A DNA stretch of 64,000 nucleotides from Heterotrichella gracilis (Eukaryota; Sar; Xanthophyceae; Tribonematales; Xanthonemataceae). The stretch lies in NCBI GenBank assembly GCA_032358255.1, contig JAULBX010000003.1, forward strand, positions 124,001-188,000, read 5' to 3'. Under the pieces are notes generated by a model. That model was not told the DNA's origin. It searched no databases and saw only the letters and a program-made list of their open reading frames with translations. How positions within the stretch are numbered: the first letter of the stretch is position 1; each line of letters begins with the position of its first letter. Shown here in pieces: positions 10,416 through 57,800 of this stretch. Both the position numbers and the translations under genes were made by a program.

Positions 10416-11710
10416 CAGGAAAGACGCCTCTTTTCCAGCAACCAAGGGACTGAAATCTTTGTGCGACGGCTAGGCTGTGTTCTCAGCTGGTGACTGGCTT
10501 CGCCGCTACATATGGCACAACAGGCGAACAGGAGAGCACAGAGAGGGCTTCGCGGGTCATTGTGATTGTATGTTGCACGCTGTGAGGTGCATGGACGAGG
10601 CAAAGGGTGTTTGCAACCTGGTACCTGCCCCTACATACGCCAGCCGCTATCGAGTATGCCCCAGTCCAAGGCAGCAAACTTTCAAAGCTCCTCTTCGTGC
10701 CTGTTGGTACGTGTACCAGCCTGGCGCCCCAGCCTGCAATAACGTCACTGCTTGTCATTTCATTGTGCCGCCTGGGGGTAGGCCGCCGCCGTGGCCCTGA
10801 GAATCCCCCAAACAAGCTTCCCCGGGATGATTGCGGCTGGAGTGCTGGGCTCGTCGTCCATATTTCAACCACGGGCTACATGGTCTGCAGAGCACTAGGT
10901 CCTAGCTTGGCCGACTGTTCAATGCTAACGAGTGTCCAAATGCAGGTAAGACACTGTGACTGTCTAAAAATGTCTAAAAACCTCTTCCGCAGAGGCGTGC
11001 GCGCATGATATTGGCGCCAGTTTTGAGACGCAATTGCAAAAAGCTTTTACAAGAACTGGCTGAACAAACACTGCTGCATGGAGTGCACTCACTCCGTAAT
11101 GGACTGGTAAATGGGGTGGTACATCAAGTGCACCTCAACATTACTGATTGTAGCACAGCTGCCATCCTCTACCTAATGGTCAATAGTATTGACCAGATGC
11201 ATGCCACGCTATTTACAGTGTACACTGCCCTGGCAACGTGGAGCAGCCTCACTATTGCACCGCATATGCCCAAGTTGTAAATAAGGAACCACTTTTGTCA
11301 GCCAAATCTGGCGTGCTGGCACACTGCTACTACACAACCGGACCTTCAGAAAATTGGTAATGAATGAGTTGTACTGTGGCTTATGGTATATATGAGGAAC
11401 AAAATTGAAACCACTGCGCTCACTAGTCTCCGTGCAAAACCCCATACTGTTGAACAGCTAAGCTAGCTTGCCCACACACTCCAAGCCCACATTCGCAGCA
11501 GCATCCCGGCAGAACCTCAACTGCCTGTGCGATCAAGCCTGGAGCTTGCTGGCCATGCCCCTGTCCGTTACCCTAGACACTGAACCCCAAACCCTAAACA
11601 GACCCCTGCTCATGACCTGGGCTGACCCTTGTCCGCAAACTTGACCACAAGCGTCCTGCCGTGCGGCATTACCCTAGACACTGAACCCCAAACCCTAAAC
11701 ATGCCCCTGC
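10416..11710. other. Intergenic: UBP1-like upstream and CELF-like 3' region
   Basis: About 1.3 kb between two genes on the same strand. No exon chain was recognised. It should hold the promoter and 5' UTR of the UBP1-like gene and the 3' UTR of the CELF-like gene. The right end (11570-11700) is a duplicated piece of the CELF-like last exon with CCCTAAA repeats. Confidence 0.5.
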
Positions 11711-11770
11711 TCACGACCTGGGCTGACCCATGTCCGCAAACTTCACCACCAGCGTCCTGCCGTGCGGCAT
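11570..11770. repeat. Echo of CELF-like last exon with CCCTAAA unit (about 101-bp period)
   Basis: Two tandem units. Each holds ACCCTAGACACTGAACCCC plus AACCCTAAAC, followed by the reverse complement of the last coding segment (residues HGRTLVVKFAD plus stop). The right unit is the live exon end; the left unit (11610-11669) differs at scattered positions. The duplicated stretch includes the stop codon. Confidence 0.9.
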
Positions 11771-14648
11771 GGGCTTGTTGTTGTGCATGTCGATGGCCTG
11801 CTGCGCGGTGAATCGGGTGGCGTAGGTGATGAAAGCACAGCCCTTGCTCTTGCCCTGGGGATTGCGCAGGATTGCCAGCTCGTTGATGTCGCCCGCTGGC
11901 GCAAACAGGTTCCACAGGTCGCGCTCGCTTGCCTGCACAGCAATCGTGAGCAGGGTTAGGGTTTAGGGTTTGGCGAAGGCCTGCACAGCAGCCATGGGCA
12001 GGCTTAGGGTTTAGGGTTCAGCGTTGGCCTGCACAGCAACCAAGGGCGGGTTGAGGGTTTCCTGTTTTCCTTTATGGGAGGAGGTCACCAGGCAACGGCT
12101 TGTGATGGACTGAGGTACAGGACGTGCACGTACTAGCAATGGATGCATCCCACTTGGGGCATGCACGGCCCTGCACCTGATAATGCTCATGCTACACAGC
12201 TACCTGCAGGCGCCGACCCTGGATAGCACAGCCCGTAGTACCAATGGTATTTGCCCCAAAAACACTAATCAGCCCTCACTTCAGGTGGTATTCCCGACAA
12301 TGCCTAAACCCTAGCCAGCCCTTACCTCCAGTGGTATTTGCCCCACAAAGAGCTTCCAGGCAAAAGCCGCCTCGTTGACCACGCCCTTGCCCCACTTGCC
12401 ATTGGGCTGCACAATGGGTGGTGGCACATTCTGCATCTGCCCCATGCTTGCCATGCCCATGCCTGGCATCCCCATTCCAGCCATCCCCATCCCCATTCCC
12501 ATCCCCGACATGGCCATGCCATCCATCCCGCCATTCATGCCCATACCCCCGCTCAACCCCATTCCATTGGCCATCCCCATTCCGTTGGCCATCCCCATTC
12601 CGCTGGCCATCCCCATCCCGTTGGCCATCCCCATCCCGTTGGCCATCCCCATCCCCGCATTCATCCCCATTGCTCCTAGCCCCATGCCTGCCATGCCCAT
12701 ACCCATCATGCCTGCATGGCACAACACAGGGGTCAGGAGGCATTACATACAGTTCAGAAAGCATCGTCTACAAGACAAGTACCCTGCCAGCTGGCATGCA
12801 CAGAACATAGCGTGACTGCAATTATGTATGCGAGGCAGTTCCCTCAGCCACAGCGTGCACCACCAATTGCCACAGCACTGCAGCTGCAAGGAACTGCAAC
12901 TGAACTGGGTAGGCCATCAAGGAGTGCCGTGCACGTGATGCATGCGCACCGGGGTTGCGGGGTTTAGGGGATGCCCTACACGTTATGCGTGCGCGCCAGG
13001 GTTGCAGAATTCAGGGAATGCCCTACACGTTATGCATGCGTACCAGGATTGTAGGCCATGCCCATCATGCCTGGCGCCATGCCCATCATGTTGACCCCCA
13101 TCCCAGTCATATCCCCCATCACGTTCACGCCACCGTAACCCCAAGGATTCATGCCCATCGCCCGGGGCATGTTGGCCTGCTGGAGGGCACACAGACTGTT
13201 CAATGGAAGGCAGCAGTGAAGCCCACATTTTGTGCAAGAAACTGTGGCGATGGTGCAGTAAAGGAGCGCGGTTTGACTTCTTGTGAAAACTGTAGCAGTA
13301 ATGCATGAACAAACAAGCAGGCGGCACACATTTGGACACCATCACTAGAAGACGCAACCATTGCCGCGCTGCAGCGCCACAACCAAATCCCAAACCCTAC
13401 ACAGCACATAGGTTTACCTCCCTGAGTCCAAAGGCTTTAGGGTTTACCCCTCATGAGTAAAAAAGTTGCCGGTTTTAAGGTTTAAACCTTACCTCCAGGA
13501 GCCCAAAGGTTGCCCGTTTGCTGGTGTCAGCCTCTTCTGCCATGCCGCGCTTCTGCCCCGCTAGCTGCGGCGCATCCTTTCGCTTGGCGTCTGCAAAGCG
13601 CACCACCACCGGGGCATCTGACCCCGTGAATGTGATGTTGCCATGCAGGGATTTCAGCGCCGCCTCTGCTTGTGCCCACCTCCTGTATTGCACAAAGGCA
13701 CAGCCTGCGCCAGTGGAAGGAACGTAAGTTGGCGCGCCTTGCAACCTGGCTGAACTGTGGCATGCATGCATGCATGCATGCATGCATGTGCAAAGTGGAG
13801 TGGGGATTGTCACTCACCGGCTCTCCCTGTCCTCAATATGCTCAGGTATTCTATTTCTCCGAAGACCTCAAAGTGCTGCCGCACCTCCTCCTCGCTGATG
13901 GTTTTGGGGACCTACCAAGGGACAGGGACACACATCACGAACAGGTGCGACTGGGACGGGAGACAAGACAGACAGACTGGGGAGCACAGGGAAAAAAAGA
14001 CGAGCACTGTATACATGCTACGGGAGAGGGTGCAGAGGCGTAGGTGAACCACAACAGCGTCGTTTGCGTAACGGACGGTTGGACTCCAGAAAGGGCTGAA
14101 CGGTTTCCGGGGCATATGACGGGAGAAGGAGACACCGCTTGCATATACATAACGTCACCAGACTCCACCGGCCAAACTTAAACACGCCCACCAACGCAAC
14201 GTCTTCTAAAAAGCCCTCCTCCCCGGAAACAATCACCCACATGCACCCATATGCATGCATTGGACATGCTACTGCACTCAGGGGACCGACACGGGGCGAC
14301 AGACACCTGGCCAACAAACAGCTTCCTTGGAGCGATGCCCGGCTGGACTTCCTGGTTGGGCCCCGACTTGGGTGGGTTGGCAAACCGCACAACCAGCGGC
14401 CTGCTGTTCCCGCCTTCCAATGGCGTGGTGCCGTTCAGCGCATCCACCGCTTGCTCGGCGGACGTCCAGCTCTCGTAGGACGCCATCGCACAGCCCTGGG
14501 ACTTGCCATCGCGCCCCTTGATAATCTGTATGCTTTTCAGGTCGCCAAACTGGGCGAAGAGGTGGGTGAGCTCCTCCTCTGTGGCTGTTGGCGGGAGCTG
14601 CCCACAGAACAGCCGGGGCTCGCTCGATACGGGTTCAGCAGCCGCCAT
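11711..14648 (-). CDS. CELF/Bruno-like three-RRM RNA-binding protein with Met/Gly hinge
   Basis: Predicted exons (minus): 14648-14307, 13911-13818, 13704-13493, 13179-13044, 12711-12326, 11932-11711; 1392 nt, 463 residues. RRM1 is at about residues 10-92 (RLFCGQL; SQGCAMASY), RRM2 at about 108-193 (RKLFVGQVPKTISEEEV; AGCAFVQY) and RRM3 at about 380-460 (KLFVGQIPLEASERDL; SKGCAFITY). The two N-terminal RRMs, long divergent hinge and third RRM are the architecture of CELF/Bruno proteins and resemble plant FCA RRMs; these regulate splicing, polyadenylation and translation of U/G-rich RNAs. The hinge (about residues 240-350) is almost entirely Met and Gly, with MANGMG repeats encoded by an 18-bp minisatellite. 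The first ATG (14648) is followed by MAAAEP. Several introns contain copies of the adjacent exon edges. Confidence 0.9.
11931..12060. repeat. Echoes of the RRM3-exon acceptor with TTTAGGG (about 49-bp period)
   Basis: GCCTGCACAGCA (reverse complement of the TGCTGTGCAGGC acceptor) occurs at the live junction (11931) and again at about 11982 and 12029. Each is followed by sequence such as GGTTAGGGTTTAGGG. Successive copies diverge with distance from the exon. Confidence 0.85.
12240..12330. repeat. Echoes of CELF-like exon-5 donor
   Basis: The live exon end and donor (GGCAAATACCACTGGAGGTAAG on minus, near 12326) has diverged partial copies at about 12283-12300 and 12244-12256 inside the same intron. 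Confidence 0.7.
12553..12660 (-). repeat. Coding 18-bp minisatellite (MANGMG units)
   Basis: About six tandem 18-bp units of the type CATTCCGTTGGCCATCCC lie in the hinge exon of the CELF-like gene. They encode Met-Ala-Asn/Ser-Gly-Met-Gly. The unit length keeps the frame, so copy-number change would lengthen or shorten the hinge without frameshift. Confidence 0.9.
12945..13050. repeat. Echoes of CELF-like exon-4 donor (about 51-bp period)
   Basis: Three tandem copies of a unit containing ATGCCCTACACGTTATGC and CAGGATTG-like sequence. The right-hand one contains the live donor (AATCCTG/GTACGC on minus); the left copies are diverged and one carries GGGTTTAGGGG. Confidence 0.85.
13757..13788. 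repeat. (GCAT)n microsatellite
   Basis: About eight perfect GCAT units in the intron between exons 2 and 3 of the CELF-like gene; self-complementary alternating DNA. Confidence 0.9.
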
Positions 14649-15747: not shown

Positions 15748-15752
15748 CTAAG
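15729..15752. repeat. Interstitial telomere-type repeat at the RNase III stop codon
   Basis: Three CCCTAAA units (TTTAGGG on minus). The RNase III stop codon TAG (15750-15748) is itself the beginning of this array, so the 3' UTR opens with telomere-type repeats. Confidence 0.9.
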
Positions 15753-18700
15753 CACCAGCCTGTGCAGCGCCAGGGAAGTCTCCCTGCACCACGTTGTCCC
15801 ACGCGTTCCTTGCCGCGCTCATCTCCGCATCCTTCTTGGTCCTGCCCCTGCCCTGGCCCACCTCCTGCTTGGCTATCACCGCAGCCACAACCCACTCCAT
15901 GCGCTGCGAGGGGGAGAAACATAGGTCAGTGTCAAGGGCGTGGGTAACCCTATATCCATGCGGCCAGGGCGTGTGGGCAGCAGTCACCAGCAAACCCTAA
16001 ACCCTACAAGTGTACCCTGAACACCGAACCTTCAACAGGGCGCGTGGGCAGCGGCTTAAGGCACGCGCCAGGTGGCATGGAGCAGCGGCATGCACTGTGG
16101 GTGGACCCTGGTCCAGCGACCCATGCAGGTAACTGTGCACGCCAATGCCCACAAGTGCATGGTTACCCATGTGGAAAAGGTATGTGGGTCACAACCAAAT
16201 AGTCCCATTGTCCCAAAACCACATCCATAATTTGCCACAGCATGAATCGCCCTAGTATGACACCTCCTACAACACACTCCAACGATAATGCCCCACTGCC
16301 GTGCCCCAAGCAGCCAACATTTCTCCTCCTCACCTTTCACCATCCCTATTCCCCTTTCCCACTACCTTTCCCGCCCTGCTTTCCACCTCAAAATAAGCCA
16401 CCAACCCCTCCCCTCCCCTTTCCCCCTTCCCCCTCCCCACCTACCTTCACCTTCCCCTTGCCCTTCCCCTTGTTCTTCCCAGCCGCCACCCCGTACCCCT
16501 TCACATTGTACTGAGGGGGCCCGAGTCTCTGGGAGGCGGCCCACGACATGAGCTGGTCTTTGGCATTCTTGCCCACCATGACGTCATCCAAGTCCATGTT
16601 TTTGGCAATCGCGCGCAGCACAAAGCGGCGACATGCGTCGAGGCCCCTGTCCAGGTAGACTGCAGCGATGAGGGCTTCAAAGGCGTCCCCAAGTGCACGT
16701 GGCCAGCTCACTGCGCAGAAGGATGTAGTGTTAAACATTTAGCGTTTAGGGTTGAGGGTTTAAGGTCGCCAAGTGCACGAGACTAGCTCACGGGGAGGGT
16801 GTGGGGCATTGGGTTGTGGATCGCGGAGAGCAAAAGGCCAACCAGTTGGCGCAACCTGAACCTGGACCCCACTGTATGCAGGTTGACCGCCATAAAGCAC
16901 CGCCGCCGCAGAACCCAAAACCCTGGACCCTGTAACCCGGCTGACCCTGACCCTCACCCCCACCTTCATCGTGCACCATGTGCAGGTTGACCGCCATGAA
17001 GCGCCATAAAAACCCTAAACCCTAGGGCCTGGACCCTACAATCTGGCTCAATCTGACCCTAACCCCCACCTTCGTCCTTCACCATGTGCAGGTTGACGGC
17101 CATGTAGCGCCTTAGCTGCAGCTGCTCAGCAAACTCACTTGCAGCCTTCCCGTTAATCAGGCGGGTGGCACCCTGCGTCAGCGCGCCCTGCGGGGACAGG
17201 CAGGTAGGGTTTAGGGTAATGGAATTGCTCTGCGGGTGGGGTTTAAGGGTCCTAGAATTGGCTCCGTGCGTGACCGCGCCCAGCGGTGACATGCGGTCAG
17301 GGGTTAGGTATATCAAGGTTGCAGGGTTTGGGATACGCCAGCTGCAACGCCACAATGTGGTCACCATCACATAGCAGCACTAGGGTGCCCAGCGGAGACA
17401 CGCATCACCCCAAAAATGCATGCAGCATGTACTCAACTGTGCGCAATGGCACCACCACACCACCACCTCCCACCCACCCACCCACCTCATCCACATTGGG
17501 GTAGCGCTCATACAGCTCCTGGCGCACGATGACAGACAGCACCGCATCCCCCAGCAGCTCCAGGCGCTCAAAGGAGTGCGACACCCAAAAGTGCGCGCGC
17601 AGCGCCTGCTTCACAGTCAGCGCCTGGCGGTACATGTCAGGGTTGCGGATGGGCATGTGCAGGAGTTGCTCTAGGCGCCACTTGGGGATGTCGCGCAGCG
17701 GGTGCGCGCTCACGCACTTGCCTGCAATCAGAATAATAACTGTATTGAAAGCCATTGGTGGTTTTGCACGATATTTCCTACAGGTTTGTCCAATCTCTGT
17801 TTCAATTTCTTCGTTCTTAAGAATGTGGGGGTACAGTTCAGGGCGTTCAATGGACATGCGCAGGAGCTACTCTGGGCCCACGGGATGTCGCGCAGCGGGT
17901 GCGCGCTGGTGCACTTTCCTGCACTTCGTTTATTACCTAGGTACTTCCCTAGCTACATGGACTCCAACCATGCAATCAGCCTTGCATAAGCTGCGTGAAG
18001 CACACTTCGTATAACCTCCTGACCTTGCGTGATGGACATACTGCTCAGTCATGTCAGCCTGTTTGGCCCTCAGCCTACCTATTCTATTTCCGTCATGGCC
18101 CTTATTGATATTAACATAATGATGAAAATGATAAATAGTTCAACATCAAGTATTTTCCACCATGGCAGCAAGTACAGCGCATGCATTTGTGTGAACACAC
18201 GCTAGGGTTTTGTCAGCATGCTAGGGTTTTGTCAGCATGCTAACCCTCCCCAGTACCCGGCCTGGTGGTACACTTCGTCGCCAATAACCCCTACCTTCAT
18301 TGTCGTAGCCATAGTCGCGCCACTGCTCGGGAGGCACTGTCAGGGCAGCAGCCAGTGAGGGGCTGGCATGCACCTCGGGCTGGAGCGGCTGTGGGAAGAT
18401 GGGCAAGCTCCTGACGTGGTAGGGGAGCCACGTCCACAGGGTGAAAGCCGTGCTTTGCAGCCTGAAACACATGTGGTGCTGGTGAGGGCATTGGGGTTTT
18501 GAATGTAGGTAGGGTTTGTGAGGCTTGATTTGTGCGCTGTGGTTTCATGTAGCTGGGCAAGGTAATGGTGTGGGTAGAGGAGGCACGCCCAGAATGTGAA
18601 AGCCGCACTTTGTAGCCTGTGGCACAAGTATGCGGCGCTGGTGTTCATCCATAAACCCTTAACCCTAAACGGAGCAAAACTATGCGGCGCTGGTGTTCAT

Positions 18701-21700
18701 TTATTGTCCAGTCATTATCCATAGGAACGATATTTGTGGATCAGTCAGCACCATGGGATTCCATTGGGACCACCACGCCCGCACCTTGACACCGTTGAGG
18801 GTCCAGAGCTGACCTTAACCCCTAACCCTCAGCCCCCAAAACCCTAGAACCCTAACGCCTCAAGCCACGCCCGCACCTTGACGCCGTCGAGGCAGCAAAC
18901 CACTTCAGCCCCGCAGCCACCCGTTCCCAGACCGCCCCCCATGCCGCAGTCCCCAGCCAATGCCACAGCCCCCTGCTCCGCCCATCCCCACCACCCGCCC
19001 GCTTGACAGAAACCTTCCTGGTTCCCTGCCCAAAGGCCTCGCCCAGGTCTCCTGTGGCAGTCGCAGCTGCAGCCACCAAGGCCCCGCCTGCGTCCTTGCC
19101 CTGGAAATCTGCCCCGTACGCCCCCCTGGCAATGGCCACGTTGCTGGGGGGCAGCGGCTGCAGCCTGTGCAGAGCGAGGGAAAGAGGCTGAGAAGGCGGC
19201 TAAGGATGAGGATGAGAGTGAGAAGAGGAAACTGAGAAGAGAGACTGCGCATAGAAATGTCAACGTCAACGACAATGAGGATGAGCCAACACAATGGCTC
19301 TTACAACCCAAAGGGAACATGACCTCGGGGGTGAAAAGGAAGCACCAATCCACAGAAAAAGAATAAATTAAATCGATTATGAGTACCGTACCCGCCATGA
19401 CTCTGGCACCCAACAGGCAACAACATGGGACAAGGCAGCATTCCCGCAGCGCAGGTGTGCAACGCATGCGCTGCATGTCCCTATGCAAAAACAACAGGTA
19501 TACATAATGGAAATCACAATCCTCAGGGTGAAAACAAAATCACACCTGTCCAGAGTCCCCGCGCCGCCGCCGGGCCCTCCCCGGGGCTCAAACTGGGGCT
19601 CCACATTTTCCAATAGCGCGCCCGACAGTGGCAAAGGCCGCTGCGCCAGGATTAGCGGTTGAGTACCATCCCCACCCCCAATCCCCAAAGCAGCCCCATT
19701 TGTCCCTGCTTGAGCATCGCTGGCAGGATCACCACCCGCAGACAAGGGGTCAGGTTGGGACGAGGTCCCCGGATCAATCCCTAGTGCCTGCGCGGACGTC
19801 CCCGATTCGATCCCCTCCAGATAATTCCAAAGCTCCGTCTCATCCAAGCCTTGCAGGGAGGCCCCGGGTTCGATCCCTTCCAAAGAGGCCCCGGGTTCGA
19901 TCCCTTGTGGGGAGGCCCCGGGTGCGTTCCCCTGCGCAATCCCCAGCTTGGCCCTGATGTAGTCAAGCTTCGCCTTCAGCTCCAGCAGCTGATCCAGTTG
20001 AGCCACCAGCTGCTTGTATTCTGTATCTTCCTCCCCTTGCCCAACTCCAGGTGGCGCCATCCCTCCATCAGAGGAGGCGGCCCCATTGCCTGGCACTGCT
20101 GATGGTGCTGATGCTGATGCGTCTTGCGGTGGCGTTGAATTGGTGTGAGAGCCTGACATTGCAGCATCACCGGTACCATCACCGTAAAGACTCCCATTCT
20201 GTGCTGTGGCGCCATTGCTAGAGTCCTGTGCGCCATTGCTAGCGTCCAGTGCGCCACTGGTGGCCTCCTCCTGATCCACTCCCGGCTGGTCTGCCACCAT
20301 TGACCCTGTCTCAAGGGTGGTGGTGTTGGTGTCGGTGCTGGTGGGGGTGTCAGTGCTGGTGGGGGTGCTGGTGGACTCCTCCATTGCTTTCAGGAGTGCT
20401 TCTGCCAGCTGCATGCGCGGCTGCGGCTGCTGGTCAGGAGCCTTGTCCACCTGCAAAAGGGTGGGGAGGGCAAGGGTGTCACGCCCTGGATGCATACATC
20501 TGTTAAATAACTACACAATAAATCGTCAACAATGATAAATTTCATCCACCTGCAGGGGGGGAAAAGGGTGTCACGCCTCAGTACCCACAGGTGCACAGGC
20601 TGGTAACATACGCTGCATGGTGGGCTGAAATCAAAACGTTGGTATATGCACCCCAATTACAACACAGACGGCGTTGTGACACATCCCCCCCCAAATCTAG
20701 CACATACCCTTCTTTCTAGCCGTCATTCACACCCACACATGAGTCATGTGACACGACAGAGCAATCCACGACATAATGGTCTGCAATCCGTCGTGTGACA
20801 CCCACCGCGAGGAGAAAGATACCCATGATCGAAGTACAACAACCCCTTTGGCAGGCATGATGCACATTTCTTTAGCATGACCACCCATACACCTAGAGGG
20901 AATCAAAATGACAAGCAATATTCACCTGCTCATCCTGGCTGGCGCTGCTCTCCTGCCAAAGCTTGTAGTCCAGCTGCACACTCCGAGTCACCCCTCTGTC
21001 CCTCACCAGGGCCTCCAGCTTGCTTAGGGTTTTGCGGTAGGACCTGCCCTGCAGGGTGGCCACGTGCACTGCGGACCGCCAGGAGGGGAGCTGGCGCTGC
21101 CTCTTGTCAAAGCAGAATGCGATTTCGCCGCCCGGGAGCTCTGTAGAGGGGATCGATTGTCTATGTTGCCCGCAGCGATTTACCATTAAGGGAATGCGAG
21201 GGTGGGAGATGGGAACGGGGTTGTCGGGGACGTGTGGTGGGGCATGTGGTAGAGCATGCGGGCATCCAGGAGGGTTAGCTGGCGCTGCCCCTTGTCAAAG
21301 ACATGAATGCAACATTGGTGCTGGGGAGCTCTGCAAAGGGAGTACGGTAGTCCCCTCCCAAACACCCCGAGGCATGCAAGAAAGTGTTGAATGGGGACCC
21401 TACCCAACAACTTGACTGACACCCTTTTGACCTGTATACACCCTACCAAGAGACATTAAAAACCCTTACCGAAGACCTTGACGGACGCCCCCTTGACCTG
21501 CTTCAGCCTGTGCTGCAGCTCCTCCAGCGACATCCAGCTGTGGGGGCCAGGCAAGCCCACACCCAGGAAGCGACCAGGCGCCTCCCCCTGCTGCACACCC
21601 TCGCCATTCCGTGCACCAGGGGCTTCCTCCAGGCTACCTCCCGCTTCCGAACCCACAGCGTCTGCCACCTGGCCATTGCTGCTTGCATTTTCTGATGTTC

Positions 21701-23549: not shown

Positions 23550-26500
23550 ATGCCTCGCTGGGTGATAGCAAGCGAGGAGGAGGAGGCAGCAGGGGCGGAC
23601 TCAGACCAGGAGTCGGAAGGAGTGGACTCTGAGGAGCAAGGGGAGGATGATGGGGAGGAGGCAGGGCAGGGGCCCAGCAGGGTGGACCGCACCGCCACCG
23701 CCAGCACCTCCAACGTGCAGCGCATAACCATCTCCCTCAAGCCAGGGCCGGCTGACGACGTGTGCCACGTGCGTGGGTGGACGAGCTACCCAAACCCTAA
23801 ACCCAAACCCTAAACCATAAATATATGCGTGAGTGCACGACACGCGCAGCTGTCATTGGCGATAAGCGCCTGTTCACAACCTGCCTGTTGTGCGGCCACA
23901 CCTACTGCCGTGCACACATGCCGCAGTGTGGTGCGTGCATGCCACAATACACACGTTTCAGTGTGCCCTAAGGGGGCCAGTAGGGGATCTCAGGCCGCGC
24001 CCCAGATCCTACGCCAGCACCTCGCATCTCTTGGCTGCAAATATTAGGATGTTGACACCCGACAAAGCACACAGGCTGCTAGGGTTGGGCCGGCACTGGA
24101 TTGGGGTTTAGGGTTTAGGTGCCGACCCTCCGCCAGGTACCCTTGTGCATGATGATGTGACACGTCGTGTGTTGTGTCAAACCCAAAACCTTAAACCCTC
24201 AACCGTGCCTGGTGGTAATACGAGCTTGGCCCATCTGCGGTGCAGGTGTGTGGCAAGAAGGGGCACAACGCAGGCTTTGTGGGGGCAAAGTACCTGGACT
24301 GCCCCAACCGGCCCTGCTACCTGTGCAAGATGGCTGGCCACACCACCGCCACCTGCCCCTACAAGACCGCGCCTGAGACGGGGTGCGAGCGCGCCAGCGG
24401 GGTGGCCGAGCACTCTTTGCTGAATGCACTGCGGCAGCAGGCGCAGGATGGCAGGTGGGTATAATATGGGTGGTGGGTGCTGCACCAATGAACCATGACA
24501 CCACATGCGGGCCCTGGCATGTGGCGCTGCAGTTAATCTGACGCGTCATGTAATCAGTGGCATGCGGCGCCAGCGGGGTTGCATAGCATACTTATTGGAT
24601 GCACTGCGGCAGCAGGCGCAGGATGGCAGGTGGGTGGGTGGTGGGTCCACGTCATGTGGCAGCCATGGGGATCCCCATTACGGCGCCTGCAACCCATTGA
24701 CGTGTTGTGCCGCATATGATCTGATGGTGCATGTGACTGGTGGCATGTGATCAGTGGCGTGTGCTCGGTGGCACGCGATTGGTGGCAAGCAATTGGTGGC
24801 ATGAGGTTTCCAATTGACGCACTGACTTGTGGCGTGTGGTGCTGCATTTTATTTGATGGCCCCATTTGTTTATTGGGTTGTGGGGCCGCATGATCATGAC
24901 GGCACATGGGATCAAAAGTTGTTGTCGCAGATCATGACGGCACATGGGATCAAGACTTGTTGTCGCATGATCATGACGGTACATGGGATCAAAGTCTTCT
25001 GTCGCCGCATGTACCATAGCATCGCGTATGGTCATGGGTAGTGGCCGCTGCGTGTGCTCTTGATGTCCGATGCGGTCATTGGCGTGCTCAGTGTGATGAT
25101 GGCACAAATGGTTGTCCGGGCGGGGCTGGGATTAGGGTTTCATGTTCCGCAAGCTGAGCAAGAGTGGTTGCGTGTCTGGCTGGGCGCCTGACCTGCTTAT
25201 AAACCCGACGTTTTGACGTGTGTGCAGGCCCCGCTGCGTTCCCATCAAGGCGCAGCAATGGCACGTGGATGCTGCAGTGCTCAAGCTGCACTCCAGGCGC
25301 TGCACCTGCCTGGAATTCCATCCCACGCTGGTAAAAACTGAAACTGAAAACGTTCGTCTGCCACTGGCTGCGTGCTCATTGCAAGTGGTGTACGGTGCAT
25401 GAGCGCAGGCAATAGGGGGGGCAGTGGGGGCCTAATGCGTGTTGAACACAATCTGGTTGTAAGTAATTGCACCTCGTCCACTTCCCTTGAGATGTGAATC
25501 AGATTTCAACCAATGTGGTCCTGCGTGCATCATCTGCAGATCATGGAGCATCATGTGATCAGCCCTAGCACATCCAGCGTTCATTGCGTGGAACTTCAAT
25601 CTGTCTTATTCTGTTTTATTTTCGAAGTCCAATGTCCTCGCTTGCCGATCACCGTGCAGGACCACCTAGTGATCAGCGGCGACAAGAAGGGCCAGATTGC
25701 TGTGTGGGACTTCCAGCGGGTGGTTGAGCGCACCGTGTACAACAACATCAACAAGTGGTACACTGCGGGGCTGCGCTGCATGCGGGGGGGGGATGGCATG
25801 GGCTGTGTGTCGGCATCGTCGGATGGCACTGTCAAGGTGGGTGGGTGGGTTAGTCCAACTACAGTCAATTGCTAGCAGTACAGCCAGATTATCAGTCTGG
25901 CCAAGCCATGTCTTGGCACGGCAGATAATTTGCAGCGCCCAGCCTTGTCCTGGCACTGGGGATTGTTCGCAATGGTTATTGAACAATTTTAAGCATTTAC
26001 AGCTGAAATAGATGACACCATGAAGCTGAGGGGTGGACAGGTAATTAGTAGAGTGCATTCAGCAGCCAGATAAGCAGCATATGACACAGTCACAAACCCC
26101 TCGAATAGCAGGTGTGATGCGTGTGCCAATTATTGCAATCCACTTGCAAGGACTGCAGGTGCATGCTCGTAGGCATTGAGGCTCCTAGGCATTGAGGCTC
26201 CTAGGTATTGAGGCTACAAGTAGGCCGATGGGATAAGCTTGCACCCTGTCCTCCTAATTCAGGTGTTTGACATTGAGACTGGGGACCACAACACGCTGCT
26301 GGAGCTCAACCCCGGGGGCTGGATCAACGGAGTGAGCACAGAGAAAAACTGGGGCATGCTGTATGGCCTGGACGTGTCAGCCATCAGCGGTCTGGTGGTG
26401 TCTGGGGATTCCTTTGGCAACGTGCACTTTATGGACAGCCGCATGCAGGCTGTGGTCAACTCCTCACTCATTCACAAGAAGAACACCAAGGTGACGTCGG

Positions 26501-33843: not shown

Positions 33844-33889
33844 CGTGCAAGATTTGCAAGAGAGTGAAGGGAAGTTTGGTTGAGCAAAC

Positions 33890-40283: not shown

Positions 40284-43200
40284 CTATGCCCCTCCCGTCC
40301 CCCGCCCCCCCTGCTCCACCTTGCCGTTGCCACCCACGCCGCCGCCAGCACCACCACCCGCCGCAGCCCCTGCAGCCGCCCCCCCTCCCACCTGCTCCCA
40401 GGGCCGAGGTCGCGTGGCGCCCAGCAAGCTCCCGTCCGGCCCCGCCATCCCCTAAATGGAAAAGAATCGAATCAGAGCGGGCGTAAAATGCGGATTCTGC
40501 AGTGAAGCTAGGGTCTGGGTACGTGGTGCTTCAACCGCCACGGTTTTCCTGACCCTGCTTCCATTACACATGTACACGATGGCCAGTAGTCACACCCTAG
40601 AATGGATGGTGTAACATGAACATTGCAGTTACACAATACTTATGCACACAGCAGGGGATTCCACTCCATTCATGCAAAGCACCAGCCGCTCCGCTCACCT
40701 CGAAGATCTCCTGCATGAACTTCTGGGCAGCCCTGGAGAAGTGCCGCGAGGGGTTTGTGACCAGCAGCAGCGGCCGTGTGAGGCGCACCCCCTTGATGTG
40801 CACCCGGTGCACCAGCCCCAGCTCCAGCTCCTTGTCGATGGCGGACACAGATACAATGGCCACGCCCAGCCCGTACTGCACAGCGGTCTTGATGGCCTCG
40901 ATGGAGTTGAACTCCTGCGGGTGGGGTGGGGTGTAGGGGGTTGGGAGGGGTGGTAAGTTAAAACCTCTCCTGGGAATACACCCTCGAGGTTTTTGGGTTG
41001 CACAAAAAACCCTCGAGGTTTCCATGCACGCGCCAAGTTACCCTGTAGCCTTGCCCCTAGAAACCCTTCCACATTCCCCCACAGACGTCACCACCACCCT
41101 CATCCCCCATCCTCCCTGGCCCCACCCCACACAGACAGCATCCGCACCTTCGGCAGCTACCAGCACCACATCCTGCGCACACATGAACCCCCCACCCCCC
41201 CATCCCCACCCTGGAGAGCTGCCAACTGTCACCGCACTATCTCAACATTGCATCCTGCACCCCCACCCAACCCCCACCCACCCCCACCACTCCCACCCAC
41301 CCCACACCCACCATCTCCACCCTCAGCAGCTGCCAGCTGATGTCGTGCTGCCTCAGCACCGCCTCCTGCACCGACTGCACGCTGGACCCCTGGTTCAGCG
41401 ACACAAAGCCAAGCTGCAGGAGCTCGTCCTTGTCGATGCACTGGCGCTGCGCCAGGTCGTGGGTGCGGGGCACGATGAGCACCAGCTCGTCCTGGCCGTA
41501 CACAGTGGCCTGCAGGAGGGTGTGTTTTTAGGGTTTTGGCTCCATGAGAAGAGAGTGGGGTGGGGTGAAGATTGAGACAGGAGTGTCTATGGGTGGAACA
41601 CACATCACCCATCGCCATGCCCGTCCCCACATACAGCTCTGTTACACCTCTAGCACCCCCCAACGATGGCAAGGTCACTCATCCCCGCACCACCGCATAC
41701 CCCCTTCCCTTTACAAGGATCACACAGTAGCACCCTCCTCCCACCCAAACCACCTACATTCGGCACGCTCTGGTACTCCTCCGGCACCGCCAATGATGGC
41801 AATGTCCACCTCCCCCCGCATCACCGCCTATCCCCTCCCCTCCCCTCCCCTCCCCCCCCCCACCACCTACGTTCAGCACGCTCTGGTACTCCTCCGGCAC
41901 CTCCCCGCCAATGATGGCGATGTCCACCTCCCCCCGCACCACCGCCTCGCAGATCCTCCTGGATTGGTCCACCTGCAGCTGCACCGCCACGCAGGGCGAG
42001 CGCTGGCGGAACATGCCGATGAGGCGCGGCATGAGGTATGTGCCAGTGGTCTGGCTGGCGCCCAGGGCAACCATGCCTGTGGCGGCGGTCTTGTAGTCCT
42101 CCAGGGCCTGCGGGTGGATGGGGTGGGGATGGGAAGTACTGAGGTGGGTTGTGACTGGAGTGTATGAGGTGGGTCGGTGACTGGAGGCCTTTGCATGTGG
42201 GTGTGGTGTACGTGGAGGTGGGTAGGTTGGGGTGGATGGGAGGGGGGGGGGTGTTGTTCCAGTGCCAGTGGCTGGCGCTCAGGGCAACCATGTCTGTGGC
42301 GGCGGTTTTGTAGTCCTCCAGGGCCTGCATTGTGGAGGCTTTTGGAGAGGGAGGAGGACAAGTGGGTGAGCGTGTTGGCAGAGCATGAGGTACGGAGTGG
42401 GTGCCAGGGCCAGGGCCAGAGCCAGGATGATTGTGCATGCGCGGTGGTGCAGCGCGGCCGTCTGCAGGCCTTCAACGTAGCCAGGCCAATACACCGGGTT
42501 ATGCGGCAGCAGCGCACATACCCTCCATCTCCTCAACTTCCTCACCCCACCTTGCAGGAATCACTGTCACCTGCCTCACACTCCTTGCCAGCCGCACTAT
42601 CGGCCGCTCACCGCCCCCCTCCCTCCACCCCTTCCATTCCCCTCTCTTCCCTTACCTTGCATGCCTCGCTGGCCAGCAGCAGTATGGTGTCGCAGTACTG
42701 GAGGAACAGGCGCCCAGCCTCAGTCAGGAACACAGGCCCCTGCCTGCAACATAGGCACACCACATATTTAGACACATGATTAGGAGCATGTTCAGGTGTA
42801 GAAGGCAACCTTTGTCAGACTACCTGGCCTGTGTAATCAAGGGCCGGGTGGACAGGTGGCGCTATGCGCCACACTAATCGCCAAGTACATGATTCGCCAC
42901 TGTGTACCCAGACCTCGCTGCGCCCCTTGCCAACACCTCACTTGTGCGATCTGCCCACCACCACCGCCGCCACCCACCCACCCACCCACACCGCCGCCAC
43001 CCACCCACCCACCCACGCCCTCACCACGTCACCCCACCCCACGCCAGGAACAATTACAGCTACATGCATGCCCCCAAAGCAATGGATCCACACCACTCCA
43101 ACCCCCAAAAACTCACTTATGCGATCTGTGCAGCAGCTCTGCCTCCAGCGCCTGCTCCAGCCCGTTGATGCTCTTGCTGATGGAGGGCTGCGACACAGCC

Positions 43201-43528: not shown

Positions 43529-46500
43529 TCATATACCCAACCCAACCAGTAGCGTACCTATGCACTGCTCGTTCCCTTGAGCGTCCAGGTCCCCATTGAG
43601 GCTCTGGACTAGCCACTTGCTTCGGTCGCCCCGGTGGCCCTGCATACACCAGTTACATCGTCAGGCGCTTGCATGTATGGCAAAACCCTAACACAACCGC
43701 GCCTTGCTCCATCCCCTTGACAGCGCAATGAAAAGCGCACCCCCACCCCCATCCCCACATGCACCACCATCATCAACATGACATCAACACTGTATCATCA
43801 ACCCCCTCTCACCACTCCGTCCCCAGTGGACCACCACCATCACCATTACATCCCCACCCCCCCAACCCCCATCTCACCACTCCGTCCCCAATGGACCCAA
43901 AGGCCGCCGTGCATGTGTTGAGCCCAAATATCTCCCTTAGGAACGCGCGCACCGCGTTGCTGCAGTAGCGCGAGGGGTCTGTGACCACACTCAGCATGCG
44001 CTGCAGCGACACGCCCCGGATGGTCAGCGCTCGCAGCCGGCTCATGTGCACCTGTCACAAGGTGGCTGGATTTTAGGTCAAGGCTCTTGGGTTGTAGCTA
44101 TTAGCTTCCAATCCCCCTCGTTTGGACGAGGTTCCATTTGCTTTAATTGTGCATGAGACTGGCCTGAAGGCATCAGACATGCAAACGCAAGAAATGGGGG
44201 GTAAAAAACATCGAGACCATGGCAAATAGCCCAATTATTGCTGCACTCAACAGGGTCTTTCTATGGCAAACCCGCCAAGTGACCACGTGTCAATCATTAA
44301 TACGGGATTCAGAAGACCAATTATATCCTACCTCCTTGCTCACTGCTGCGCGTGACACAAATGCCACCCCCAGATCCGCCTCCACCGCGGCCTTGATGGT
44401 CTCAATGGAGTTGCACTCCTGCAGGTTGCATGCAATTTATTCCTTGTTACGACCATCCACAAGGATGCACACACACAACGTACAGGTGCGCCAAGTGCGC
44501 CCAATGTGCACCAACATCAACATGCAAACCCAGCAGCAACACATGCCAGTGTGGTGAAACTGGGGGAGTGCGGCCATACCAGCATAAAACCAGTAGTGCC
44601 ACACCATCCAGTCATGAAGGTTTCAGGGTTTACTGATGCATGTGTGGCGCATTGTGCTGGAGTGCAGCCTGTTCCACCCCATGTCGCCCCAGTACAGGCC
44701 TGATGCAACCCAAATGCACCAAATGCAGTCATTCAATGCACCATTTGCGTCACTCTACCCAACAGGGCTTGGAATTGCATTGACACACATTAAATGCATG
44801 TGCATGTGGCGTGGCATTACTTGCCATGGCGCAGCAGTCAAGACCATGTCGAGATCAAGGTCTAGGGTTTAGGGTCTATTGACGCATGTAGCGCGCACCA
44901 TTCCTGTGTGTAGCCTGTCCCAGTCCAGCCCGTGCCGCTCCAGGATGGCCCGTATGCCCTGCACCGTGGACGACTTGCGCAGCGACACAAAGCTGAGCCC
45001 GTACAGCTCGTCAAGGTCTACCTCGCTGCGCTGCTGGCCCAGCGGGTGGCTGTCCGACACAATGAGCACCACCTCGTCCTCGCCATAGGGCGTCACCTGG
45101 AGGCGCACAATTAGTTGGTTTATATTTTCTTTTCTTCGCTCCAGTAAAGCAGGAAGATTAGCAGTCGGCCCTGTCTACCTTGGGCCACAGGCTTTGAAGC
45201 AGGGTTAATGGATCAATGTGTGCGGCAATCAGAGTGGCGACAAGGATCGCATGTGGCTGCAATGCGGACCACATGGGCGCAATAAAGGCCCACATGGCTA
45301 CTATTGCCCACCTGCAGCATGCGCTCTGTGTCCGGCGATATTGCCCCCAATTCCCCCCCACTGCCAGCTCCACCATGCATGTGATCCCCCCCCAGCCCAC
45401 TCATATCGTGCATAGGCATGAGCAGCGGTTTCTTCTATATATATATAGAGATATATATGTATATCACCACCGTGCATGGGCGTGAGCAGCGGTTCTTATA
45501 TTGAGATGACCACCATGCATGTGGTGACCCCCCCACCTGCAGCATGTGCTCTATGTCTGGCGGGATGGCGCCCCCCACCACCGCCAGCTCCACCGTGCCG
45601 TCCAGCACCATCCGGCAGCAGCGCTGCGTGTTCTCCACCTGCATCTGCACAGTGATGGCGGCGTGCTTCTTCTTGTAGCTCTCTGCGCATGACGGGAGCA
45701 AAAAAGTGCTGAGCAGGCGCTACCTGGGTATGTTCATGCTATGGCAATTGAGGGTCCCTCGTGGTATTTGCAGGACATGGCTTTGGAGCTCATTGATAAC
45801 GCGAGTTGGTACTTCATGCCATGAGCGGGCAGGTCAAACAAGCACTATTCCTGCGCTGAGCCCTCATGAAACGTGCTGTGTACATGCGCTGAGCCGCATT
45901 ATACCAAAGGGTGACCATGCATGTGTCGGCCAGCTGCTGTGGAGGGGGTTGTGAGGGGCGGCGTACCGATCAACTTTGGCATGATGTACACCCCTGTGGT
46001 TTGGCTGGCCCCCAAGAACAGCTGCCCCTTCTTGATGTCCTTCAAGTCATTCATGGAGGACACCGCATCCGCCGCCAGCGCCAGTATCCGCTCGCAGTAG
46101 GGCAACAGCAGCCGCCCTGCCGTGGTCATCTGCGTGTTGGCCTTGCGGGGCCGCTCCACCAGCTGCATCCCGATGTTCTCCTCCATCTTGGTCAGCGCAA
46201 AGTGGACTGCCGTGGGGGTGCACTGCGCTATCTGGGCTGCAGCCTCGATGTTGTTGGTGGAGGCCACTATCTTCAGGTAGGTCAGCTGCTGGAGGGTGAA
46301 GGGGAGGTCCAGTGCCACGGGGAACATCTGCATGCCAACCTGTTTCCAGTCCTTGGTGCCAGGGCCAGGGCTGGGCTGTGCTTTTGCAAAGTTCCCGGTG
46401 TGCTGCGTGGCCATCGCCTGGGTTCTCTGCTGCTCCGGTGGCGTGTAGTGCCACGTCTGCGTGATGGTGCCTTCCTTGCCATTGAGGTGCGGTTTCGGCG

Positions 46501-46666
46501 CGGATGACGCGGCCACTGGTCCCGCGCCGTTGCCGTTCAGATGCTGGGTGCACTGAGGGCGTTGTTTGGGTTTCCTTGCTCCACTCCTAGGGCCTGCCGG
46601 GAGTGGCGTGCTGGTATGGTGGGTGGGTGGGCCACCCACTGTCGACATGTCATTGGCCCACCTCAT
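43529..46666 (-). CDS. Nuclear LysR-type (RbcR/Ycf30-like) transcription regulator B
   Basis: Predicted exons (minus): 46666-45967, 45682-45537, 45096-44899, 44418-44332, 44051-43878, 43639-43529; 1416 nt, 471 residues. An unstructured Pro/Gln/Thr-rich leader of about 115 residues precedes the HTH (about 123-180; FTLQQLTYLKIVAS, CTPTAVHFALTKMEE). The effector domain has [57 protein letters not shown] and ECNSIETIKAAVEADLGVAF. It shares several splice positions with gene A (after the EHMLQ/QSVLN stretch, before ECNSIE/EFNSIE and after it), so the two are an old tandem duplication. The HTH recognition segment (CTPTAVH versus VSQPSIS) differs strongly, suggesting different DNA targets or loss of binding. 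Exon 6 (WLVQSLNGDLDAQ) is the least certain part. Head-to-head with ERD2. Confidence 0.9.
43800..43900. repeat. Echo of LysR-B exon-5 donor (about 66-bp period)
   Basis: GGGGACGGAGTGGTGAGA (minus), which contains the exon-5 donor, occurs at the live site (43878) and again at about 43824-43807. Confidence 0.85.
45300..45600. repeat. Echoes of LysR-B exon-2 donor
   Basis: The exon-2 end (CACATGCTGCAG, then GTGGGG on minus, about 45537) has a diverged copy at about 45355-45311 (CGCATGCTGCAG, then GTGGGC). Between them CACCATGCATGTG and GTGAGCAGCGGTT units repeat at about 45375, 45420 and 45480-45520, and there is a TATA dinucleotide run near 45437-45460. Confidence 0.8.
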
Positions 46667-54095: not shown

Positions 54096-54849
54096 GATGG
54101 CGACCTGGTGGGTAGTAAACACACAAGCGTTGCTCCTTGCTGTCTGGGCTTTGGCTTGGTTACCGTTGCCCGAGCTACAACGCCAGGTTTCAGCAGCTCG
54201 GTGAGGGTTGTCCACTGCACTCTGATAACTGATCCCGAGAGATAATCCTTACAGCAGCGGTTCACAGCTTCAATAGCACAGATGATAACAGGCTCCGCAA
54301 CGTTTGGGTGTGTCTGGACAGCAAGGTGAAGCACCAAAGCTTATATGTCGGAAAGAGGAAGTGGGTCCAGTGAGACTTTGCAGGTGCTGGACAACAGCTA
54401 AAAAAGCTTCTTATAAACCCTAAACAAGGGTTTTGTAGTTGTGGCTATTAATAGAAATTTCACCATACGTTCAAGGTTGGCGGAAGGTGATCAGGCTAGT
54501 TTACAAGTCTCCTCCCCACACTAGAATAAACGGTCTTCAAGGCACCGTGTTTTACTGCGCACCTTTACAAGTACAGCGGGTATGTTGCTTTTCTGGCATG
54601 CATGCATCTTGGCAAGTGTGCACTGACTGCCCTCCCAGTGCTGTCTGCATCCGCTGTTTACCCTGTGCCACACCCAGTCAGAATGCCACCGCGCAGCCCA
54701 AAGCCCCCATCAGATACACCCCTAAAACACCCCATAAATCAGTGCCAGCATAGCCCACTGGGAGTCCCTCCCGCTGTTCCCCTTCCAACTCCCTCCCAGT
54801 GCTCTACATCTGAAAAAGGTACAGAATCCCTCCCCGCTTGCCAACCATC
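54096..54849. other. Intergenic: IST1 upstream region and DUF819 3' region
   Basis: About 750 bp; both neighbours are on the minus strand. Nothing recognised beyond expected UTR and promoter sequence. Confidence 0.5.
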
Positions 54850-57800
54850 CTACATCCGGAAAGCCGCAATCTGCATCCCCTTGAGCACTCTGGTCCCCAG
54901 TGCCACCCCCAGGAAGGTGGCAACCGCATACCCTAGGGTTCCCACCAGGATGCAGGGCACGATGGAGAGCTTCCACCCCTTGGCCGCAGCCATGCCTGCC
55001 GCGGTGGTGGGGCCTGCGCACAAGGGGGAGATAGCGGACTGTGAGCAAGCGGTGCATATTCATGTACTTTCCGCTTGTGCAGAGAAATGAAGAAAGGGAC
55101 CTGTTATCTTATTGTCCTTGCCCCAACGCTGCGGGTGCACATGAACCTACCTCCCACATTGGTGCTTTACACCAGCAACAAGTCAATCTACACATGCACG
55201 TGCAATTAGAACATACTAAACATACGGCTGTACTATAGAAATGCAGTGCAAAAGGGTCTGCGCTTACCTCCCACATTGGCATTTGAGGCCAGCAGCAGGT
55301 CCCGCTTGGTGAGCCCCAGCAGCTTCCCCACCCCCAGCACGATCCCCAGGTGGATGGCGATTTGGATGAAGGAAAACACAAACAGGGAGGGCGCGGTGCG
55401 TATCACCACCGCCACATTGCCGTTGGCCCCGACAGCGGCGAAAAACACCTGCGCCGTGGCACATTCAGTTCAGAGACATGGTCACCCCACAGGGTTCCGA
55501 TACGAAAGGCATTTCTAAGGGGAACTCTCCCGAGAAGGGCCGCAGAAAATCAAGGGGGGGATCGACAGGCGTGCTCAGTCATTTAATGAGCAAACGCATG
55601 GATCTCGTGCATGCCGACCCCCTTGCATGACCAAAGTGGCGCACATCCAGGCACCAAGGCTGCACAGGCAATGGCTTTGTCGTTGTCAATACAGTACAAC
55701 AGATCAAATGATGGGTGTCTGCCGCCGCAGCAAGTTCTCATGGTCATCAGCAGCTCTCCAGCTTATAAAAATTCCATTTTCTTTTGGTTTTTCTTGGTTT
55801 AAAAAGGAACGGCGCAAGGATTAATTCAAGGGAGACAATAGGGCTGCTTGCTAACCTGGCCTTTTTTTGGCCAAAATTGCAATAATAAGGGATTAGTGTC
55901 ACATCCCACCTGCATGATGATGGCTGCGATGCCCTCAGCTGATGAAACATATGGCGCCAGTGCCCCCGGGAAAAGCGTGGCCAGCGCCACTGTGAACGCC
56001 GTGACTATGGGTATCAGGCTGCCGGACATGCCCCACGCCTTGGCACACGCCACGCCCACGTAGCAGATGACGAAGGATATGGCCAGGGCGGTGGTGCCGT
56101 GGAGGACCTGACACATCAGGGAACAATCGATGTTGGCTGAATAAAACCCTCATTTTGTTCTGCATGTCATTGAACCACCAGCATGTCAACATTGTTCTGC
56201 ATGCTATTGGATCGCCAACATTCCCTGCACCATTTCTGGTAGATTGATACAAAGGAACACTCATTTATTCAGCGCCTGCAAATTTAATTTATGGCAGGGT
56301 GAAAGAAAGAAATGCTCATCTATTCAGTGCCGGCACCGTGAATTATGGTAGATTGAGAAAAAAGGAAACGCTTATTCATCCAGCGCGCGCACCGTGATTT
56401 ATGGTAGATTGAGAAAAAAGGAAACGCTTATTCATCCAGCGCGCGCACCGTGATTGTCTTGTGCTGCTCCTCCCGCAGGTCAGCATGGGGGTCAGACGCA
56501 GCCCTGTCCTCCGGAATGCCCCTGGCTAGGGCATACACCGTGGCAAAGTACAGCGCACAGATCAGGTTGTCTGCTGCCAGGCCAGCAGCTTGGGCTGAAG
56601 ATGAGATGCCCAGGGTCTCCGCCACTCCCACGTAGTTGACCGCGCCGCCTATGTGCCGCGCAGCGAGTGCTGCTGCCACCTGGCACGATGGCGACGCAGG
56701 TGGGAACTTGGTTGATGATCATGGGATGTGTGTGTGTGGATATGGCTATGGGTGTACAACCCCGAGTTTTCAACAGACAATCTGGAGCGCCATGTCTGTA
56801 GCACAAATGCATACATGATGCAAGATGGCCAGGGTCCCTGCCGCAACAACGTAACAACCCCCCATGTGCCGACCGGCCCGAGCTGCTGCCACCTGGCACA
56901 ATGGCAATGCAGGCGTGCAGGTACGCAGCCCTAAACATATCGGGCAAAAATGATGAGCACGGGTGGTGCAATATGATGGGCATGCTACCCTCGTCCCTTA
57001 GTCACATGGGCATGCCATAATTAAAAGGTTTCATTATTCGTTATTCATTTATTTGAAATAATGGTTAATTATACTTAGATAATAATGCGTGTCACCCGCC
57101 CACCGGCAGCGCACCTTCCAGCCATCCGCCCCCAGCGACAGCAGTGGTATGAACTTCATGGCGGCAAGGGTGCCCGCCACAGTGGCGCATGAGCCCAGGA
57201 TGAAGGCCACAAGCAGCCTCCCTGTGTCAGTGATCACGCGCCTGCAGTAGGGTTTGGGGTTTAGGGAATAGGGCTTGGGGTACCCGCCACAGTGGCACAT
57301 GAGCCCAGGATGAAGGCCACAAGCAGCCTCCCTGTGTCATGATCACGCGCAGGAAGGCACCCACTGCGAGTCAGCTCCAGAAACAGGTAAGCAACTGGCC
57401 ACGCGTGCCCCAGTGCAATGAAGCCACCAACGCTGGCCTCTCGCCACCGACTGGTTTTGGTAGGGTTTTGGTAGGGTGTGGGTTGGGATCGACAACAGCG
57501 TTTGTGAGTTGCATAGCACACCTGAGGTTGGCTGAGAAGAGCAGGGGCACCTCCACTCCTGTCCTAGGGGTTTGGTCGGGTTCAGATGATTGTAGGTGTA
57601 ATATCCCACCTGAGGTTGGCTGAGAAGAGCAGCAGGGGCACCGCCAGAGGCAGCAGCCACCTGTTGACGGTGTCATACACCCCCGAGCTGCTGGGTATGA
57701 GGCCCATGTTGCTGAACGCCAGCCCAACCAGGGTGGCCACCAACGCCCTGGAACAGCAGGGGTCAGGGTGATGTGTTGCTGGTGGTGGTTCAGCATGCTA

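Follow-up and report, generated by a model that had tools for sequence, protein, structure and literature searches.

Introns of Heterotrichella gracilis contain copies of their own exon edges, often with telomere-like spacers

This study was concerned with exon edges that recur as diverged copies, here termed echoes, within the adjoining introns of Heterotrichella gracilis (GenBank assembly GCA_032358255.1). The reference stretch is a segment of 64,000 nucleotides (contig JAULBX010000003.1, positions 124,001 to 188,000), referred to below as the window, for which an earlier note, drawn from the letters of the DNA, had described such copies in at least seven genes. The echoes are real. They occupy 56 of 441 predicted introns, the local copies are almost exclusively in direct orientation, and they decay as non-coding DNA. 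They are associated with telomere-like tracts, which peak just behind splice sites. The explanation that we favor, with confidence little better than even, is a recurrent, repair-linked local duplication with telomere-like DNA at its junctions.

Detection of echoes

The analysis covered 314 kb of DNA: the window (C2:124001-188000, C2 being the label used for its contig), an adjacent 200 kb of C2 and one 50 kb stretch of contig C46 (C46:300001-350000). C2 positions such as 136807 or 183081 are counted from the start of the window. Gene models were made with a small gene hidden Markov model (HMM), self-trained ab initio on the 314 kb, and all splice edges are therefore predicted ones. The gene HMM returned 542 exons and 442 introns with a median length of 280 nt, with donors of the CAG/GTGAG type and acceptors of the TGCAG/G type. 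The genome holds TTTAGGG repeats of the plant type and 43 matches to the chlorophyll-a/b-binding family, which together indicate that the host is a photosynthetic eukaryote.

The test took the 441 introns that are flanked by two exons. The 60 nt at either exon edge were aligned to the intron, and a score of at least 36 was counted as an echo. Matches to the own intron were obtained for 34 exon ends and 29 exon starts, 441 of each having been aligned, and fall in 56 introns in total, in agreement with the earlier claim that donors and acceptors are both affected. The same self-alignment with swapped exons gave no match in 4394 comparisons between edges and the introns of other genes, while one match arose among 882 reverse-complement controls and none among 539 far edges of the same exons. 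The count of 56 is probably too low because the gene models called some echoes exons. Of 70 predicted genes, 11 also show an echo at the stop-codon edge (control 0 of 688), one or more of these edges being a donor misread as a stop, and 2 show one at the start edge (control 1 of 688). Splice sites are the main echoed edges, perhaps not the sole ones.

In addition, local repeat pairs were searched for at E<=1e-5 without gene models. This search gave 156 direct and 2 inverted pairs, to which C2 (264 kb) contributed 152 and 2 and C46 (50 kb) 4 and 0. Their identities range from 67 to 99%, apart from one short C46 match of 100%. In the window, 24 direct pairs no more than 2 kb apart were found at E<=1e-4, 19 of them inside the span 11570 to 57640.

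The earlier note had proposed a genome-wide pattern, and this holds in so far as signs of it occur on many contigs. For the whole assembly (68.5 Mb in 903 contigs) patterns were counted with the heptamer AGGTGAG taken as donor-like, so that exon edges are presumed there from the pattern alone. At 365 places CCCTAAA lies no more than 25 nt after AGGTGAG, and at 547 places TTTAGGG does so (912 in total), whereas the opposite order, with the motif before AGGTGAG, occurs at 77 and 112 places (189 in total); the backward-read controls gave 12, 8, 13 and 18. A site was counted once for each nearby motif, such that 100 rows represent 88 distinct sites. Pairs of AGGTGAG number 348 at 80-110 bp apart versus 124 at 410-440 bp (backward controls 36 and 13). 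Among the first 100 of the 365 places, 22 of the 88 distinct sites, on seven contigs, have a second AGGTGAG/CCCTAAA site on the same strand at 50-400 bp, where 0.002 per site would be expected. The density is, however, uneven: 54 of 373 introns contain echoes on C2 versus 2 of 68 on C46 (Fisher p=0.005), and telomere motifs number 8.0 per 10 kb on C2 versus 1.8 on the C46 stretch. Thus, with few echoes and few motifs on C46, the process appears to be patchy along the genome.

Anatomy and decay of the copies

In the typical layout an exon end and its donor are followed by a spacer of tens to about 150 nt and then by the copied exon end and donor; the mirror image is found at acceptors. The smallest offset is 50-249 bp in 98 of 103 C2 clusters, with 45 clusters at 70-119 bp and 20 at 190-219 bp, and at C2 position 140530 a 64-bp unit is repeated at least five times. 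The copies run through the splice site into intron sequence, as had been claimed. In the 18 pairs of at least 90% identity (gapped alignment) the copied part comprises on average 48 nt from the exon and 34 nt from the intron, the exon part being longer in 12 of 18, and it extends 0-63 nt past the splice site (7 nt or less in five pairs, one miscalled mini-exon excepted). This average of about 34 nt weakens a first impression that copies end exactly at the splice site. Among copied segments, some end within 7 nt of the splice site and others are complete tandem units.

In 51 echoes with a score of at least 40, mismatches fall on codon positions 1, 2 and 3 of the exon at 10.6, 8.1 and 19.6%; among 23 indels, 22 have a length that three does not divide. 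Thus, the copies decay as non-coding DNA while the exon is constrained to mainly synonymous changes. Coding or alternative exons under selection were rejected as an explanation in view of this decay and of Pfam domains that cross four echo introns, since Exo_endo_phos is continuous over three and COG5_N over one. These domains belong to predicted C2 proteins; among four such proteins checked outside the named genes, two matched Pfam families and two matched none.

The claim that copies become more decayed with distance from the exon did not reach significance. The nearest copy was more similar in 14 and less similar in 7 of 21 untied edges (p=0.19), and copy identity was not significantly correlated with distance over 95 points (Spearman rho -0.14, p=0.17). 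One of the 22 multi-echo rows, the tie, is a masking artefact, and its duplicate points remain in the correlation.

Intron length, splice sites and intron gain

Introns with an echo on C2 have a median length of 375 nt (n=54) versus 269 nt for the others (n=319); together with the domains that run across echo introns, this supports the suggestion that echoes lengthen introns. The GT dinucleotide is kept in 19 of 34 donor copies and AG in 18 of 29 acceptor copies, as tallied by eye from the aligned echo list, so that some echoes may serve as spare splice sites.

A further claim, that duplication of segments holding AGGT seeds new introns, was rejected. In the 441 introns, intron ends resemble upstream exon ends no better than swapped ones (0.252 in both cases), and the same is true of intron starts and downstream exon starts (0.262 versus 0.257 swapped). 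This anchored test was also null for short introns and for introns with telomere motifs. Only one of 441 introns, a 68-nt intron on C46, had a gain-like score.

Telomere-like tracts

The window contains 35 TTTAGGG motifs versus 5.5 expected, with a maximum of 11 in 100 shuffles. Genome-wide, there are 834 places with three telomere-type units, and the reversed control gave none. In C2 introns the density of the exact motif falls from 4.04 per kb in the first 50 nt to 0.71 at 50-100 nt and is 0.87 in mid-intron; before acceptors it is 1.96 per kb within 50 nt and 1.42 at 50-100 nt. Intergenic DNA of C2 holds 29 motifs in 62.8 kb. The cover by telomere 6-mers peaks at +10 to +40 from donors (0.10-0.13 versus about 0.04), and the donor motif peak is also present in introns in which no echo was detected. 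Just after predicted stops the density is 1.61 per kb (6 motifs) versus 0.5-0.8 further on.

The two orientations, TTTAGGG to CCCTAAA, are equal within 50 nt of C2 donors (36:34) and differ within 50 nt of acceptors (4:30; 12:32 in a looser count that allowed one motif at both ends of a short intron). This bias is most readily explained by selection that removes newly arisen TTTAG near acceptors. Donor strength does not differ with a tract (1.33, n=52) or without (1.31, n=389; p=0.56), and the idea that tracts compensate for weak donors was rejected.

Echoes and motifs are associated on C2, with odds ratios of 5.1 (p=1e-4) for donors and 9.6 (p=1.5e-6) for acceptors. The earlier statement that many spacers hold TTTAGGG or CCCTAAA units is in keeping with this, yet 31 of 63 spacers, counted by eye, are without a telomere motif. 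In 57 echoes, telomere 6-mer cover is 0.241 between the copies and 0.148 beyond the echo (p=0.0003), versus 0.069 in introns without echoes. Tracts lie on both sides in 26 of these echoes, between the copies only in 7, outside only in 2 and in neither place in 22. Young pairs differ in this respect. For example, the pairs at 136807 (98%), 57168 (96%) and 65606 (92%) have a telomere-like stretch between the copies only, those at 122325 (95%) and 81908 (91%) have one on both sides by eye, and the pair at 42052 (95%), in a LysR gene, has none.

Placement and survivorship

On C2, repeat cover, which includes copies as well as sources, is 0.174 in the last 30 nt of exons and 0.143 in the first 30 nt, versus about 0.06-0.07 deeper in exons (60-100 nt from the edge) and 0.034 for intergenic DNA. 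It rises again to about 0.10-0.11 at 150-200 nt inside exons. The 105 C2 clusters comprise 87 at edges, 6 in introns only, 4 in intergenic DNA only and 8 in exons only, where random placement gives 56, 21, 19 and 9.

This strong edge enrichment becomes milder once clusters are split by identity. Young clusters of at least 88% identity number 21 at edges, 6 in introns, 0 in intergenic DNA and 1 in an exon (random 13.9, 6.2, 5.2 and 2.6), and those below 80% comprise 45 at edges and 4 in exons. An intron-only pair decays on both sides and would therefore vanish about twice as fast, so that much of the edge bias may be survivorship. The apparent specificity for exon edges is partly a matter of survivorship, in which selection freezes the exon copy. 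Under a stricter placement, which considered whether each insertion could have been neutral, the 28 young clusters fall into 9 clean edge, 2 small edge, 5 intron, 0 intergenic and 12 coding-disrupting cases, versus 4.0, 1.3, 5.4, 5.3 and 12.0 at random.

Echo loci in the window

The seven genes named in the earlier note are supported by Pfam, the DDB2-like gene weakly. Unless stated otherwise, the echoed edges and their echoes listed below lie on the minus strand of the window and coordinates are window positions. In the CELF-like gene, which is supported by RRM domains, a 101-bp unit present twice (94%; 11568-11770) comprises the end of the last predicted coding exon, the stop and a TTTAGGG tract. 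This pair at 11568 sits at a predicted stop codon and not clearly at a splice site. Also in this gene, a 48-bp unit with the acceptor (TGTGCAG) occurs three times at 11931-12074, and two of these copies also carry CCCTAAACCCTAA-type sequence. One coding exon predicted for the gene contains tandem repeats of 15, 18 and 54 bp (12440-12712).

The RNase III gene (Ribonuclease_3) has three copies, about 105 bp apart, of an exon end with its donor and a telomere-like tract (16870-17114), and its true exon start, an acceptor edge at 17625-17726, is echoed in the intron at 17826-17923 (78%). Exon starts at 18397-18484 and 21070-21150 of the window are likewise echoed, at 18551-18643 (73%) and 21257-21340 (79%). 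On the plus strand, a DDB2-like gene with WD40 matches that are weak, below curated cut-offs, has a true exon end with donor at 24391-24478 and its echo at 24567-24646 (82%), with an 88-bp spacer that lacks a telomere motif. In the PstS-like gene (PBP_like_2) an exon-edge segment and its copy lie at 30024-30127 with a period of 56 and CCCTAAA between them; the exact edge is uncertain.

LysR A and LysR B, two bacterial-type regulators whose genes carry introns and stand in tandem, lie on this eukaryotic contig at 40200-46650. In LysR A, which matches LysR_substrate in pieces, an exon end and diverged copies with a period of about 131 occupy 41636-41947. Its true exon start behind CGCAG (42052-42111) is echoed at 42269-42328 (95%) behind a TGCAG of its own; similarity ends about 4 nt into the intron, and the spacer is without a telomere motif. 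In LysR B, which also matches LysR domains, an exon-start segment occurs twice within 45307-45598, at 45307-45378 and 45532-45598 (79%), and the gene model calls both exon. In both paralogues the substrate domain is split near profile positions 66-69 and 132, which suggests that some introns are older than the LysR duplication. Three further LysR matches (on C222, C72 and C702) are single open frames, possibly on bacterial contigs.

In the gene with a DUF819 domain, an exon segment at 56604-56700 has a copy at 56823-56913 (73%), together spanning 56604-56913. A true exon start behind CTGCAG (57168-57241) is adjoined by a 36-bp spacer of the CCCTAAA type that ends in the acceptor (57242-57277), and the echo lies beyond this spacer (57278-57350; 96%, with a 1-nt deletion). 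Within 57513-57646, an exon end with donor at 57601-57646 has an echo at 57513-57555 (87%) that the model calls exon. A 56-bp tandem repeat of about four diverged copies (56232-56468) lies around the predicted end of the DUF819 model. Elsewhere in the window, a diverged minisatellite (4033-4508; units of 20, 58, 97 and 174 bp) was modelled as exon and is probably not coding. At C2 positions 136807 and 183081, two genes have similar exon ends (TCACCTGCGCCAACATCATGGTCAACCTGG), both echoed at that edge; the genes may be paralogues that share this history, or the event may have recurred at a single site.

Origin of the echoes

In the favored explanation, a segment of tens to about 100 bp across an exon edge would be duplicated in direct orientation, usually 50-250 bp away, most likely during repair of a staggered break or after replication stalls. 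Telomere-like DNA may be added at the break or already be present there, often leaving a short degenerate tract at the junction, and further rounds would give arrays of at least five units. Insertions that break the frame or splicing would be purged, so survivors would lie behind splice signals. The intron copy would then decay while selection holds the exon copy, such that duplications spanning an edge would remain recognizable longer than intron-only ones. Break repair in which staggered ends are filled in, and in which telomeric DNA can be captured, is consistent with the almost purely direct orientation, the short distances, the added sequence at junctions and the telomere-like spacers. 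The break and its repair, the source of the telomere-like DNA and the reason why it sits at splice sites are parts that we infer.

Several findings weigh against this account. First, the 31 motif-free spacers and the young LysR A pair at 42052 lack a telomere motif, and many units are plain tandem duplications. Secondly, tracts flank both copies in 26 of 57 echoes, which fits a tract that was present first. Third, the analysis covered a single genome, in which duplication and tract may have arisen in separate events. Fourth, the 12 young clusters in the class that selection should purge equal the random number; these may be echoes miscalled as exons. Lastly, survivorship accounts neither for the absence of young duplications from predicted intergenic DNA (0 versus 5.2 expected) nor for the tract peak 10-40 nt behind donors.

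A possible though less likely explanation is that the tracts came first. Fragile tracts by splice sites, through fork stalling and G-rich structures, would promote slippage or template switching that duplicates the edge with part of the tract. The echoes with tracts on both sides, including the young pairs at 122325 and 81908, and the donor-side tracts of introns without echoes favor this view, and interstitial telomeric sequences are described as unstable in yeast (PMC11626172). However, the young pairs at 136807, 57168 and 65606 have a telomere-like spacer between the copies only, the pair at 42052 has none, and the placement of tracts at splice sites would be left unaccounted for.

A bolder reading is doubtful. 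Here the exon-intron junctions of active genes in this lineage would be hot spots of breakage that receive telomere-like DNA just behind the splice signal and a renewed copy of the exon edge. If true, an engine directed at splice sites would be driving both intron growth and the duplication of those sites, and would have run long enough to mark about one-eighth of introns in the 314 kb.

It is improbable that ordinary tandem duplication acts everywhere and is visible at edges only through preservation of the exon copy, with coincidental tracts. The young clusters are consistent with this, since intron-only clusters match the random number (6 versus 6.2) and the edge excess is mild (21 versus 13.9), as are the echoed stop edges (11 of 70), of which at least one is a model error. 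In contrast, intergenic DNA is depleted of clusters both among the young (0 versus 5.2) and overall (4 versus 19), and coincidence is opposed by the motif-echo odds ratios, the motif peak at splice sites and the genome-wide order of 912:189.

Still less probable is that tracts and duplicated edges are functional splicing elements under selection. G-runs near donors are splicing enhancers in other organisms, the tracts lie 10-40 nt behind donors and CCCTAAA is favored 30:4 at acceptors (32:12 in the looser count). However, no orientation is preferred at donors, donor strength is equal with or without a tract, and the echoes decay like non-coding DNA.

We consider it very unlikely that each echo is an intron born by tandem duplication of an AGGT segment, or a mobile introner. 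Such models predict direct repeats at splice sites (PMC4974935, PMC11782384), and the one gain-like intron of 68 nt would fit. However, the anchored test was null throughout, copies usually lie mid-intron, far from the opposite splice site, and the predicted acceptor is reached by only 2 of 34 donor echoes (190734 and 214712), both within tandem arrays. The split positions shared by the LysR paralogues also suggest introns older than the echoes. Lastly, false duplication of boundaries in the assembly was rejected as scarcely credible, for although one pair (98470) adjoins an N gap, the copies are mostly diverged (67-99%) with indels and the codon-position signature of long divergence, arrays reach at least five units and signs occur on many contigs.

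Relation to known systems and significance

The repair chemistry is known, and so are the separate parts of this pattern: telomeric DNA inserted at breaks, duplication in tandem, direct repeats close to introns and AGGT gain. The setting and scale are new. In a literature search in which most subscription papers were beyond reach, no earlier description was found of a genome that habitually carries copies of exon edges with telomere-like spacers.

Interstitial telomeric sequences of primates, rodents and horse are also short internal repeats in either orientation, sometimes with target duplication. Telomeric repeats inserted at breaks with direct target duplication are reported for 3 of 66 horse loci (PMC7215372), and target duplication at such insertions for 6 of 130 loci in rodents and 4 of 25 in primates (PMC2246262). 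Their placement looks random, with 31% in introns in human (PMC7215372), whereas the tracts described here are concentrated 10-40 nt behind splice sites and are not randomly placed (4.04 per kb within 50 nt of donors versus 0.87 in mid-intron). The present tracts are, moreover, short, degenerate and paired with duplicated exon edges.

AGGT intron gain (PMC4974935, citing Rogers 1989 and Hellsten 2011) likewise starts from an exon segment that holds splice-site sequence and is duplicated in tandem. Here, however, the intron pre-exists, the copy lies inside it and the anchored end-match predicted by that model is absent. The direct repeats near splice sites described by Rogers and Bendich (2025; PMC11782384) are close to exon/intron borders and are read as traces of break repair, but they measure 4-30 bp, with a mean of 11.4, and each pair links the 5' border to the 3' border. 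The present repeats are mostly longer and join one border to an intron copy, often with telomere-like spacers. Introner elements of Amoebophrya (PMC7789003) also place repeats at intron boundaries, with inverted repeats of 8-20 nt and direct repeats of 3-5 nt, whereas here the copy derives from the intron's own neighboring exon. In the swapped comparison, which covered exon edges, none of 4394 edges matched other introns, so the copied part is gene-specific. Direct pairs outnumber inverted ones 156 to 2 at E<=1e-5, a search for which repeats of 8-20 nt are too short.

Conspicuously long introns have been described in Chlamydomonas and its relatives, where medians are 198-343 bp in six species and the mechanism was left open (PMC8226300). 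The median here is 280 nt, and no relation between the two is asserted. The echoes offer a concrete and datable route to longer introns and to extra splice-like sites, and they tie intron evolution to telomere-like DNA.

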